Of a DNA stretch of 64,000 bases, positions 26,356 to 58,891 are shown piece by piece. A model generated the notes under the pieces. It did not search any database, had not been told where the DNA came from, and saw only the letters and a list, made by a program, of their open reading frames with translations. Positions within the stretch are counted from its first letter, which is position 1. Every line of letters begins with the position of its first letter. A program made the translations under genes and the position numbers. This DNA comes from Nocardia concava NBRC 100430 (GTDB lineage Bacteria; Actinomycetota; Actinomycetes; Mycobacteriales; Mycobacteriaceae), in the NCBI RefSeq assembly GCF_000308815.1, contig NZ_BAFX01000042.1, forward strand, positions 1 through 64,000. The letters run 5' to 3'.

Positions 26356-26430
26356 CGTCATTCCGGCGTGCTTTTGGCCGGAATCCATTGACATGGGTGA
26401 GATCCCGGCCAAAAACATGCCGGGATGACG
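26356..26430. repeat. two-hairpin palindromic repeat, copy 1
   Basis: 75 bp, CGTCATTCCGGC at one end and GCCGGGATGACG at the other. The left half folds as ATTCCGGC/GCCGGAAT, the right half as ATCCCGGC/GCCGGGAT, each 8 bp with a nine-base loop. Orientation T-type left. Lies between DUF2017 and the P1 peptidase, both on +. Confidence 0.9.
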
Positions 26431-52053: not shown

Positions 52054-53060
52054 GACTGCCGAACCTGCTGCGGCGGGACGATCGCGTCGTCGACGACGCG
52101 ACCAAGCAGAAGCGCAATCTGCGCAAGGGCATCATCGGCGCGATCGTGGTGGCGCTGGGCCTGGCGGCCGCGGGTGCGCTGTACGTGGTGCCGTTCGGCA
52201 AGCACACCTACACCGCGGAACTGTCCGAGGCGCAGTCGGTGAAGGCGGGCGACGATGTGCGTATCGCCGGGATCTCCGTCGGTGAGGTCAAGTCCCTGGA
52301 ACTGAAGCCGGACAAGGTCGTCATGCGCTTCACCGTGAAATCCGATGTGTTCCTGGGCGATCAGACCTCACTCGACATTCGCATGCTGACCATCGTCGGC
52401 GGCCACTACGTCGCGGTGTTCCCCGCCGGGAGCAAGCCGCTGGGCTCCGCGCCCATCCCGGCCGACCGGGTGCGCCTGCCCTACAGCCTGGTCGAGACCT
52501 TCCAGGACGCGGCCACCCCGCTGGCCAAGATCGACGGCTCCACGCTCAACAAGAACCTTGCGGCGCTGGGCAATTCGATCGACGGCGCGCCCGACAGCCT
52601 GCGCACCACGCTGGCCACGGTCCAGACCTACGTGGACGCGCTGGACAAGCAGCGCAGCCAGGTGTCGAACGCGGTCGCGGTGGCGGACGAGTACGTGCGC
52701 ATGTACGACGGCGCGAAATCCGATCTCGGGCGGCTCATGGACAACGCCAATCTGCTGGTGACCGTGCTCGACGACAAGCACACCGAGATGGCCGAGGCCA
52801 TCCGGCTGCTCAGCGACGTGCTCGGCCGGCTCGGCGGCGTGGAACCCACGTTCTCGGATCTGAAGCCCAAGCTGACCGATGCCATCACCCAGCTCGAGCA
52901 GCTCGGCCAGAAGTTCGCCCCGACCCTGACCGCCGCGCAGGACCTGCAGAAGAAGCTGTCGGACCTGGTGATTCCCGACGGCGGCGTGAAGGTCGACCAG
53001 TCGGGCCAGACCGTGACCCTGCCGCAGGTGTGCATTCCGGTGCCGGGGAAGGACTGCTGA
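52041..53060 (+). CDS. mceC: Mce protein MceC
   Basis: 339 residues from ATG 52041, which has AGGTGG 4 nt upstream; ATG 52050 in the ATGA overlap is equally possible. Membrane helix at about residue 30-52, MCE domain with L-S-E-A-Q-S-V-K-A-G-D-D-V-R-I-A-G-I-S-V-G-E-V in segments, then helices and a cysteine tail (V-C-I-P-V-P-G-K-D-C). Confidence 0.92.
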   Translation: MQRMRLPNLLRRDDRVVDDATKQKRNLRKGIIGAIVVALGLAAAGALYVVPFGKHTYTAELSEAQSVKAGDDVRIAGISVGEVKSLELKPDKVVMRFTVKSDVFLGDQTSLDIRMLTIVGGHYVAVFPAGSKPLGSAPIPADRVRLPYSLVETFQDAATPLAKIDGSTLNKNLAALGNSIDGAPDSLRTTLATVQTYVDALDKQRSQVSNAVAVADEYVRMYDGAKSDLGRLMDNANLLVTVLDDKHTEMAEAIRLLSDVLGRLGGVEPTFSDLKPKLTDAITQLEQLGQKFAPTLTAAQDLQKKLSDLVIPDGGVKVDQSGQTVTLPQVCIPVPGKDC

Positions 53061-54142
53061 TGTTCAAGCGGATGCTCGGATCGCAGGCGTTCATGTCGGT
53101 CGCCGGTGCGGTGCTGGTCGTGGTGCTCGCGGTGGTCGGCTATTTCATCTGGTTCGACCCGATGAAGAAGACCGTCTCCTACTGCGCCGTCATGCCCGAC
53201 GCGGTCGGCCTCTACGCCGGCAACAAGGTGACCATGCGCGGAATCCCGGTCGGCACCGTCGATTCCATCGATACCGACGGCACCAAGGTGAAGGTCAAGT
53301 TCACCGTGGACGCCCAGTACCCGGTGTACGCGGACGCCGCGGCCACCACGGTCTCGGATTCCATTGTGGCCGACCGCAATCTGGCGGTGCTCAATACCGG
53401 CAAGGACCTGAAGCACTGGGATGCGTCGCAGTGCATCACCAGAACCCTGACGCCCAAGAGCATTACCGAGACGCTGACCGCGCTCGCCGACCTCTCGTCG
53501 CAGCTGCAGCAGACGCAGGCCCCGGATGCGCTGGCGCACGGCCTGTCCGGGCTCGACACCGCCACCCAGGGCGCGGGACCGCAGATCAACGAGATCGTGA
53601 AGAAGCTGGGTTCGGCGCTGTCGCAACCGGATGCCGACATCGGCCACCTGGCGGGCATCTTCGACGCCTTCGCCTCGGTCGGTCAGAAGGTCGAGGAGCA
53701 CTGGGGCGATCTGCGTTCCATGCTGCTGCGGCTGGGCCCGGCCCTGAACAATGCCACCACCGAATTGATCGGTCCCGGTGCGCAACTCATCGACCGCCTC
53801 GGTGACGTGCTGCCCATGCTCAACGATCTGGTCACCATCGCGGGCGACCCGATCATGACGGCCCTGAACGACACCCTGCCGCTGGTGCGCCTGCTGCGCG
53901 CCAATGTCGGCTCGCTGTCGGAGGTCGTGCTCAAGCTGCCGGTGCTGACCAATGCCGCCCAGCACATGATGGGCGACGGCGTCACCTACGGCTCGCCGCG
54001 CGCGGCGCTCCCGGCCCCGCAGGCCGAACAGGTCTGCGCCGCCGTCAACGCGGCCTCCCCGGGCGCGTGCGCCGATGCCGCCAACGGCCTGGTGAACGTC
54101 CCGCTGGTGCCCCTGGTGCTCGGAATGGCAGGTGCGCGATGA
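53060..54142 (+). CDS. mceD: Mce protein MceD
   Basis: 360 residues. Membrane helix about residue 12-32, MCE domain beginning S-Y-C-A-V-M-P-D-A-V-G-L-Y-A-G-N-K-V and G-I-P-V-G-T-V, then long helices. C-terminus G-M-A-G-A-R; its stop TGA overlaps the ATG of mceE at 54139. Shares the A of TGATG with mceC. Confidence 0.92.
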   Translation: MFKRMLGSQAFMSVAGAVLVVVLAVVGYFIWFDPMKKTVSYCAVMPDAVGLYAGNKVTMRGIPVGTVDSIDTDGTKVKVKFTVDAQYPVYADAAATTVSDSIVADRNLAVLNTGKDLKHWDASQCITRTLTPKSITETLTALADLSSQLQQTQAPDALAHGLSGLDTATQGAGPQINEIVKKLGSALSQPDADIGHLAGIFDAFASVGQKVEEHWGDLRSMLLRLGPALNNATTELIGPGAQLIDRLGDVLPMLNDLVTIAGDPIMTALNDTLPLVRLLRANVGSLSEVVLKLPVLTNAAQHMMGDGVTYGSPRAALPAPQAEQVCAAVNAASPGACADAANGLVNVPLVPLVLGMAGAR

Positions 54143-55341
54143 GAATCGGACGCTGGGACATCAGCATCGACACCGGATCCTCCCGTCCCCGTGGTGGGCG
54201 ACCCCGTCATCCCGGCATGCTTTTGGCCGGGATCCACCCCGCCGCTGTGGATTCCGGCCAAAAGCGCGCCGGAATGACGAAGGGGGCGTCTCGCCGCGTG
54301 AAGCGAGCGGGTGCTGCCGTGCTGGCCGCCGGGCTGCTCGTCGGCGTGGGCGGCTGTGCCTTCGATCCGTCGTCGGTGCCGGTGCCCGGGACCACGATCT
54401 CGGGGCCGACTTACCGGATCCACATCGAGTTCGGGAATGTGCTGAATCTCCCCGCCAAGGCGAAGGTCATCGCCAATGGCGCGCAGGTGGGTTCGGTGAG
54501 CGGTGTGCGCGTGGTGGATTCGGCGCATTCGAGCGGACGCGGCGGGTATGTCGTGGTGGACGCCGATATTTCGTCGAAGGTGCAGCTGCCGACCGCGACT
54601 GTGGCCGAGCTGCGGCAGAATACGGTGCTCGGTGATATTCACCTGGCGCTGACCACGCCGCCGGGCGGGTTCGGTTCGCTGTTGCAGGACGGCGGCACCA
54701 TCACCCAGGAGCACACCAAGCCGCCGGTGCAGCTCGAGGACACCATGGCCGCGCTGGCCGCCTTCACCCAGGGCGGGGCGATCAATCAGCTGCAGGACAT
54801 CATCAACCGGTTCAATGCCGTGCTGCCGCAGGATCCCGACGAGACCAAGCGGATCGCGCAGAACGCAGCCGGGAACGCGGTCGATCTGGCGGCCAATCTC
54901 GACAAGGTCGACAGCCTGCTCAACGGCCTCGGCGTGAACGCCCAGGTGCTGCACGATCGCGCGGACTTCCTGGACCATCAGCTCAGCCAGGAGTCGGTGG
55001 ACGCCATGACCGGCGTCACCAATTCCATCAAGGGCGTCACCCAGATCTTCGCGGTGCTCGGGCAGCTCGGACAGTCGCTGGTGTGGCTGGCCCCGCTGGC
55101 CGGTGCGCTGGATCCGGTGACGCAAGCCTTTGCGCCGCTCGCCCTTTCGGGAAAGCCCCTGGATCTGTCGCAGCCGTCGAACCTGTCGGCGCTGGTATCG
55201 CTGGTGCGGGACAAGCTGATTCCGTTCGTGGAGAACGGGCCGAAGGTGAACATCACCGGGATCAAGGCGGATTCGGTTTCCCGCGACGACCAGGTCACCA
55301 ACATTCTGGCCGGACTGCGCATGATCGGCGCTGTGCGATGA
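54139..55341 (+). CDS. mceE: Mce lipoprotein MceE with an in-frame palindromic repeat near its start
   Basis: 400 residues from ATG 54139, the start that gives the ATGA overlap seen elsewhere in the operon. The lipobox V-G-G-C73 follows A-A-V-L-A-A-G-L-L, so the lipidated cysteine comes after an unusually long 72-residue leader. Codons 23-47 are exactly repeat copy 4 (25 codons, no stop). A second start, GTG 54298 (codon 54), would give a normal 20-residue lipoprotein signal and has AAGGGGG 11 nt upstream, next to the repeat edge. Residues 80-400: MCE domain (L-N-L-P-A-K-A-K-V-I-A-N-G-A-Q-V-G) and helices. Which start is used is open. Confidence 0.88.
   Translation: MRIGRWDISIDTGSSRPRGGRPRHPGMLLAGIHPAAVDSGQKRAGMTKGASRRVKRAGAAVLAAGLLVGVGGCAFDPSSVPVPGTTISGPTYRIHIEFGNVLNLPAKAKVIANGAQVGSVSGVRVVDSAHSSGRGGYVVVDADISSKVQLPTATVAELRQNTVLGDIHLALTTPPGGFGSLLQDGGTITQEHTKPPVQLEDTMAALAAFTQGGAINQLQDIINRFNAVLPQDPDETKRIAQNAAGNAVDLAANLDKVDSLLNGLGVNAQVLHDRADFLDHQLSQESVDAMTGVTNSIKGVTQIFAVLGQLGQSLVWLAPLAGALDPVTQAFAPLALSGKPLDLSQPSNLSALVSLVRDKLIPFVENGPKVNITGIKADSVSRDDQVTNILAGLRMIGAVR
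54205..54279. repeat. two-hairpin palindromic repeat, copy 4 (inside mceE)
   Basis: 75 bp. Left half ATCCCGGC/GCCGGGAT, right half ATTCCGGC/GCCGGAAT. It begins exactly at a codon boundary of the mceE frame and reads R-H-P-G-M-L-L-A-G-I, then H-P-A-A-V-D-S-G-Q-K-R-A-G-M-T. Only copy that lies within a gene. Confidence 0.9.
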
Positions 55342-57956: not shown

Positions 57957-58030
57957 CGTCATCCCGGCGTGCTTTTGGCCGGGATCTCACTGCCGCCGTG
58001 GATTCCGGCCAAAAACATGCCGGAATGACG
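57957..58030. repeat. two-hairpin palindromic repeat, copy 5
   Basis: 74 bp. Left half ATCCCGGC/GCCGGGAT, right half ATTCCGGC/GCCGGAAT, orientation as copies 2 and 4. Begins 10 nt after the LLM oxidoreductase stop; the next gene is on the same strand. Confidence 0.9.
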
Positions 58031-58087
58031 TGGGGATTCCGGGAGTTCGGTATCATCGCGCGCGCTTGCTCACCACCTGGAGGAACC

Positions 58088-58891
58088 GTGCCCGCGAACC
58101 CCACCGCCGCCGAACTGCTGGCGACCGTCGAAGCCTCCCCGCGGGCGGTCGGCGCGCACGACAAGGCCGCCTGGGTGGGCCTTTTCGCCGAGAACGGCAG
58201 TGTGGAGGATCCGGTCGGCTCGCGCCCGCACGTCGGGCGCGCGGCCATCGAGCGCTTCTATGAGACCTTCATCGCGCCCAACGGCATCGTCTTCGACGTC
58301 ACCAATGACGTGGTGTGCGGCATGACGGTGTTCCGCGATCTGAGCATCGCCACCACCATGTCCACCGGCGTGACGTTGCACGTGCCGATGCACCTGCGTT
58401 ACGACCTGGAGGACGTGGACGGCACCCTGAAAATCCGTGCGCTGCGCGCGCATTGGGAGCTGGCGGGCATGATCGGCCAGCTCCTGGGTTCCGGCACGCA
58501 GGGCCTGCTGGCCGGGGCCAAGCTCGGCCCGCAGCTGCTCGGCAATCAAGGCGTCGGCGGCGCAATCGGTTTCATGTCCGGCCTGCGCGGCGTCGGCAAG
58601 CCGGGCAAGGCCGCGGCGGGCCGGTTGCTGGACGCGCTCGGTCGCGGTGATTCCGCCGCCGCCCGCGCGGCGCTGGTGCCGGTGCCGCGCCTGGAGTGGG
58701 GCACCGACGGCGCGATGTCGCTGGAGGACTTCGCCACTCGGGTGAAGGGTCTGCGCTGGAGCAAGGCGCTCGCGGCCGGGCGCACGGTCACCGCGACGGT
58801 GGACACCCGGCAGGGCAGCGGTATCGCCGAACTCGACTTCACCGCCGGCCTGCGCATCGAGTCCGCGCGAATCTTCGTACAGGCCAGCTAA
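58088..58891 (+). CDS. NTF2-like (SnoaL/ketosteroid-isomerase-like) protein with C-terminal extension
   Basis: 267 residues from GTG 58088 with TGGAGG upstream. Residues about 10-135 are an NTF2-like domain (A-H-D-K-A-A-W-V-G-L-F-A-E-N-G-S-V-E-D-P-V in parts, L-R-Y-D-L-E-D). A Gly-rich linker (about 140-180) leads to a second, smaller alpha/beta part. Catalytic residues are not evident. Its stop overlaps that of the convergent gene by 4 nt. Confidence 0.8.
   Translation: MPANPTAAELLATVEASPRAVGAHDKAAWVGLFAENGSVEDPVGSRPHVGRAAIERFYETFIAPNGIVFDVTNDVVCGMTVFRDLSIATTMSTGVTLHVPMHLRYDLEDVDGTLKIRALRAHWELAGMIGQLLGSGTQGLLAGAKLGPQLLGNQGVGGAIGFMSGLRGVGKPGKAAAGRLLDALGRGDSAAARAALVPVPRLEWGTDGAMSLEDFATRVKGLRWSKALAAGRTVTATVDTRQGSGIAELDFTAGLRIESARIFVQAS

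Follow-up and report, generated by a model that had tools for sequence, protein, structure and literature searches.

In the 64,000-nt stretch of Nocardia concava NBRC 100430 DNA analysed here (the window), the TGA stop codon of mceD (54140–54142) overlaps the ATG of mceE at 54139. The mceE product is an MCE protein (Pfam MlaD, 6.6e-11) whose frame is closed by the stop codon at 55339–55341. Its lipobox is VGGC, and the Cys is residue 73 in the long reading. A lipoprotein site was given for 22 of 27 MceE proteins in the available text of a 2007 survey (PMC1810536). The leader of mceE contains a palindromic element. The features of the locus are as follows:

53060–54142, forward strand: mceD, the gene 5′ of mceE (Pfam MlaD, 4e-15)
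54127–54142, forward strand: coupling motif GGCAGGTGCGCGATGA, identical in 33 of 70 Nocardia junctions
54139–55341, forward strand: mceE in its likeliest translated form, 400 aa, from the ATG overlapping the mceD stop
54205–54279, forward strand: palindromic element, a CGTC-tagged REP-like heterodimer of 75 bp, in frame within the mceE leader
54205–54237, forward strand: left arm (C-type) with CGTC tag, stem AUCCCGGC/GCCGGGAU, 9-nt loop and CCAC tail
54238–54246, no strand: inter-arm spacer, varying among genomic copies, similar in N. terrae and G141, where the insertion is orthologous as judged by eye
54247–54279, reverse strand: right arm (T-type) with CGTC tag, stem AUUCCGGC/GCCGGAAU, 9-nt loop and CCAC tail
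54298–54354, forward strand: charged and hydrophobic part of the lipoprotein signal, its last residue being the one before the Cys

The commonest base of the coupling motif was found in at least 0.91 of the rows at 13 of its 16 positions and in 0.66–0.84 at the other three. AlphaFold gave a weak model of MceE (13 rows, mean pLDDT 46.4) with moderate confidence in the MCE domain; residues 1–77 stayed below 50, and the model is uninformative for the leader either way.

The sequence-only reading had described the element in the mceE leader as the fourth copy of a repeat, 75 bp long, and this was confirmed; the six copies in the window start at 26356, 29436, 31292, 54205, 57957 and 59219. It was also borne out that the element begins at a codon boundary, 66 nt after ATG 54139, that it adds 25 codons (RHPGMLLAGIHPAAVDSGQKRAGMT) without a stop 5′ of the lipoprotein signal, and that AAGGGGG lies just past its edge (54280–54286), with a GTG at 54298. 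That the element is open says little by itself, since two of the three forward frames through it are open (by eye). The RNA of 54190–54300 had a predicted fold of −80.4 kcal/mol (z −8.46), which none of 200 shuffles equalled. Because the fold far exceeds the shuffles and the reversed pattern has no match in the genome (see below), the palindrome is not a product of chance. Rfam gave no match at gathering score within 53500–55000. Another copy in the window (57957–58030) supplies an in-frame GTG at 57998, the start of a mechanical open reading frame (57998–58891), and could mislead a gene caller.

In the own genome the half-palindrome pattern matched 178 times on the forward and 182 times on the reverse strand (three mismatches at most), and the same pattern reversed, used as the control, nowhere on either strand. 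The exact two-arm pattern was found at 98 + 102 places, many elements being matched from both strands, and we infer that the genome carries roughly 180 elements. Of 148 Nocardia genomes, 34 (counting the own one) had a match with up to two mismatches. Among 121 genomes drawn across the order only the own genome had a match, and two other Nocardia in this draw had none. Stretches of the own genome yielded 71 pattern matches, two of which were discarded as chance ones to leave 69 copies; for the arm count two one-arm matches were further excluded (67).

Each arm of the window copy, when folded alone, leaves both the CGUC tag and the CCAC tail unpaired. The arm stem is 8 bp long (AUUCCGGC or AUCCCGGC) and starts with AT, as in CGTC-tagged REPs. 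Its third pair divided the 126 readable arms equally, 63 having C-G and 63 having T-A; mismatched pairs did not occur, even though the search tolerated mismatches. The loop had 9 nt in 121 arms, 10 in three and 8 in two, and a C-type arm was paired with a T-type arm in 58 of the 59 elements with both arms readable. Given these pair counts and mixed pairs, the element is a heterodimer with the tags at its outer ends, and the unit conserved in structure looks to be the arm. In the 8 bases beside the own-genome copies, visual inspection showed no target-site duplication. At five places of the own genome (G000 C100:36689, C100:53101, C83:156149, C87:6327 and C65:30173), a partial extra arm adjoins the dimer, which recalls REP trimers.

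According to the available text of their survey, CGTC-tagged REPs have the tag, a stem of 8–9 bp starting with AT and a CCA tail; their dimers mostly carry the tags outside (HH) and several families include heterodimers (Di Nocera et al. 2013, PMC3733652). The same text gives no known dedicated transposase for them and places some copies inside open reading frames. The Nocardia element shares with them the CGTC tag, the 8-bp AT-first stem, the CCA tail, the heterodimers, the outside tags and the copies within open reading frames. It differs in its loop, which has 9 nt against the usual 4–5 nt of the four CGTC families described there (other lengths occur in a few species), and in the variable sequence of its inter-arm spacer. 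Its host phylum also lies outside the five for which that text gives CGTC repeats, actinobacteria not being among them, and the words Nocardia, Actinobacteria, Streptomyces and Mycobacter- are absent from the text available (PMC3733652). As the structural features agree except for the 4–5 nt loop, we call the element CGTC-REP-like and outside the four described families. Identity with the GTAG REPs was rejected on the tag, which is CGTC. RepRanger 2025 included three Actinomycetota genomes and, in the text available, no Nocardia (PMC12306157). A literature search for palindromic repeats of Nocardia or actinobacteria, with most subscription journals outside its reach, returned nothing relevant.

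The sequence-only reading had likened the element to the Rickettsia palindromic elements (RPE), and the likeness holds for behaviour: both are palindromes inserted in protein genes without a frameshift, with several proteins of one genome affected, here MceE and the products of NRPS ORFs. The host here is an actinobacterium, and the typical length of 75 bp compares with 105–146 bp for RPE in the available text of PMC2229807. RPE-4 and RPE-6 of Rickettsia conorii are themselves placed among the CGTC REPs in the portion available of PMC3733652. In Yersinia, the repeat YPAL/RU-2 is described as part of a putative new exported protein (PMC2229807, as far as available). Both this repeat and the Nocardia element add to a predicted signal peptide, but the latter lengthens the n-region of a conserved lipoprotein, whereas YPAL/RU-2 makes part of a putative new protein.

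A match to Y1_Tnp (RAYT fold) was detected in 9 of 30 genomes: six of the 14 with many elements (the own genome, G019, G073, G129, G141 and G119) and three of the 16 without elements. The other eight element-bearing genomes (G036, G072, G126, G106, G011, G068, G105 and G086) gave no Y1_Tnp match. A Y1 enzyme is therefore unneeded for carrying many copies, and a RAYT-type transposase was rejected as a required mover; it could still have had a past or partial role. No element lies in the stretch of 1,201 bases around the single Y1_Tnp gene of the own genome.

NRPS ORFs of the own genome contain four of the 69 sampled copies, each in frame and with Pfam domains around it. The copy in L145 is situated between the Condensation and AMP-binding domains, and those in L146, L151 and L142 inside AMP-binding. 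When the four NRPSs were aligned, the L142 insert was absent from the other three, the L145 insert likewise, and the L146 and L151 inserts were at one place that is empty in the other two. In one NRPS ORF the PDB alignment was broken around the element (residues 459–513), which fits an insertion, whether or not the enzyme tolerates it. Judged from these alignments, members of the element family do insert into coding sequence without breaking the frame. The case of mceE is less singular for that reason. A crude coding score found neither flank coding for 41 of the 69 copies, one flank for 22 and both for six; it misses mceE and L145, so that the in-gene share is a lower bound, and the sample is non-random, stretches having mostly been taken where the first listed pattern places fell. 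Open frames run through further copies (e.g. C90:3477, C98:43922 and C87:34443).

Mycobacterial interspersed repetitive units (MIRUs), which are not known to be palindromes, lie at the overlap itself of translationally coupled actinobacterial operon junctions. Like them, the mceE element is found at a coupled actinobacterial junction, but it is a palindrome and lies 66 nt downstream of the start. As the sequence-only reading had proposed, we compared the mceD–mceE junctions of relatives, and the outcome supports a repeat-encoded leader and disfavours a displaced start. The set comprised 20 named Nocardia loci, 29 and 40 further loci and the window (90 in all); after removal of 19 duplicates and of L120, 70 distinct junctions were left. 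L120 (G065) was omitted as the mceD stop is absent in the searched range; its mceD appears frameshifted upstream of mceE, by a real frameshift or a sequencing error.

The distance from the overlap to the Cys was measured without requiring any frame. In 66 of the 70 junctions the lipobox Cys shared the frame of the ATG or GTG that overlaps the mceD stop, and the distance between them ranged from 18 to 153 codons. The four exceptions were N. terrae (L033), where MRIGRWDI starts in frame after a spacer, and L083, L089 and L091, where the overlap is lost and an intergenic stop is present in the mceE frame. The appearance of such a stop once the overlap is lost supports the translated-leader reading. 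In the N. nova group the same overlapping ATG opens an ordinary signal of 22 aa, and many rows outside the window clade have leaders of just 18–32 codons, compared with 27 to 153 in the clade. The fewest leader-length changes on a quick tree, in which 22 of 67 inner branches had support below 80, were 35 over 66 rows and 13 over 16 window-clade rows; the latter count leaves out N. terrae and three 24-codon rows at the clade base. If lengths were free, all changes in the clade would be in frame with a chance of about (1/3)^13, a rough value since the tree is partly resolved.

The leader bodies contained no in-frame stop in 1,045 codons, and the other two frames had 31 and 7 stops, a share of the 31 being due to the TGA at the element's end. 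Of 21 rows given, 20 contributed to this count (L036 was too short); these rows, like the pairs used for pN/pS, are related and not independent. GC contents at codon positions 1–3 were 0.719, 0.682 and 0.703 in the leader bodies and 0.728, 0.739 and 0.701 in clade rows without full elements, as against 0.661, 0.506 and 0.855 in the first 75 mature codons. In ten pairs, pN/pS (simple counts) was 0.26–1.20 for the leader and 0.00–0.22 for the mature part. These values suggest that the leader sequence is hardly constrained. An open frame combined with a free sequence is the pattern expected of an n-region that is translated and discarded. Very probably, then, the leader including the element is translated while its sequence hardly matters, which would make it a protein segment under selection for frame and hardly for sequence.

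The element occupies the same place in N. terrae and G141, with a similar spacer, and the insertion is therefore probably older than these two and the own species. Further leaders with the element are those of N. inohanensis, RYN_116 and G072, and half or altered copies occur in those of N. acidivorans and G011. The N. aurantiaca leader has a 36-bp palindrome that looks like a remnant, and the N. seriolae leader at most a few remnant-like codons. The sequence-only reading had held that orthologues without the element having the same long leader, unrelated to it, would speak against a repeat-encoded leader. This was half the case: four element-free relatives have leaders of 46–53 codons (N. niigatensis 48, G071 49, N. 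crassostreae 53 and G024 46). Since element-free relatives also have long leaders, the element is, by this comparison, an enlargement of an existing leader and not its origin.

Outside the window clade, G131 has an altered copy in the leader, G135 one arm and G036 a copy amid tandem repeats. In G036 (L072), 24-bp units lie on both sides of the copy (4.6 and 5.5 copies), and in G135 (L079) 27-bp tandem units lie beside the single arm (4.4 copies). This growth in multiples of three again supports the translated-leader reading. The leader of G068, the sister of G135, is without the element. The copies in all these leaders share one reading frame (by eye). Separate insertions are the simpler reading; one old insertion with many losses is a weaker alternative.

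In our judgement it is highly likely that the element lies in frame in a translated and cleaved MceE leader of which only an open frame is needed. This explanation starts from what was directly established, namely the sequence, the copy number, the arm structure, the frame and its openness in relatives, and the relaxed sequence. In an ancestor of this group of Nocardia, a non-autonomous CGTC-tagged REP-type repeat would have entered the MceE signal downstream of its start codon and ahead of its hydrophobic core. Ribosomes ending mceD would restart at the overlapping ATG 54139, as the conservation of the junction suggests. Read-through of the element would then give a precursor with a 72-residue leader, 25 residues of which would be element-encoded. 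The leader would form the cytoplasmic n-region and, as the lipobox implies, be lost when signal peptidase II cuts before Cys73. If an open frame suffices, then insertions, partial deletions and tandem growth would be tolerated as long as they come in threes and are stop-free. Translation of the leader, its cleavage and its neutrality for the bacterium are steps that we infer.

It is unlikely that the hairpin has instead been kept to regulate the step from mceD to mceE, through RNA stability or ribosome stalling, with the open frame as a by-product. The very stable fold (−80.4 kcal/mol) would suit such a role, and REPs have been proposed to act on mRNA (PMC3733652, available text), but the element is absent or remnant-like in N. 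seriolae, N. niigatensis, G071, G024 and N. aurantiaca. Openness as a by-product also fails to explain the in-frame length changes in element-free leaders.

The sequence-only reading had left a choice between a repeat-encoded leader and a start at GTG 54298. The former was strengthened by the junctions (66 of 70 in frame, with varied length and no stops), whereas only three of 17 clade members (the window, N. seriolae and N. acididurans) have a start codon where GTG 54298 lies. That the element displaced the start, so that translation begins at GTG 54298 or at the element-supplied ATG 54273 and the preceding stretch is untranslated spacer, we regard as quite improbable. The AAGGGGG ends 11 nt before GTG 54298 and could serve as a ribosome site, and this GTG gives the compact signal VKRAGAAVLAAGLLVGVGGC. 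N. seriolae has an ATG at the same place, and some start codon falls within codons −30 to −14 from the Cys in 12 of the 17 clade members. Slightly farther out there is an ATG in N. terrae (−31), and N. acidivorans carries GTGs (−32 and −34). The available text of PMC3733652 also considers that REPs at the 5′ ends of ORFs in P. putida, C. koseri and S. maltophilia may mostly lie outside the gene. However, codons −30 to −14 are free of ATG, GTG and TTG in five of the 17 (N. terrae, N. niigatensis, N. acidivorans, G024 and G011). Moreover, the overlapping start and the motif upstream of it are conserved, and an untranslated spacer would give no reason for a stop-free frame to persist in the clade through 13 or more changes of length. 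Additional initiation at GTG 54298, or at ATG 54273 where the element ends, may occur; it would yield the same mature protein from a shorter signal.

It is very improbable that the long leader is functional, in targeting or as a retained N-terminus, and that the element was recruited for it: MRIG.W forms the first residues in most aligned clade rows, but past it the leader shows high pN/pS and no codon-position GC bias, its length varies widely in the clade, and many rows elsewhere manage with 18–32 codons.

In-frame palindromic insertions are already known from Rickettsia and some other bacteria, and the available text of the REP survey leaves the translation of many N-terminal copies undecided (PMC3733652). 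The 70 related junctions provide a comparative test of leader translation, and its outcome favours translation. Events of this kind are thus familiar, but the phylum is one that the available text of that survey does not give for them, and the comparative evidence for translation with little constraint on sequence is good. It adds an actinobacterial family of CGTC-tagged (REP-like) repeats, some copies of which lie in NRPS ORFs. Starting from the translated and cleaved leader, we give a little less than an even chance to a broader proposal, in which the lipoprotein n-region is a safe harbour that REP-like elements enter repeatedly in separate Nocardia lineages, grow in by in-frame repeats and decay. 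The lineages concerned would be the window clade and, outside it, G131, G135 and G036. If this is true, the n-region would serve as a natural archive of DNA that is translated yet not under selection.

Two kinds of long leader were noted besides those with the element. A second, longer in-frame leader stretch of the acidivorans type occurs in L034, L035, L041, L064 and L065. This 138-nt stretch was rejected as a repeat family, having one match in four of five genomes and two in the fifth, the second of 28 nt. In L114 (G098), an element-free MceE leader reaches 116 codons.
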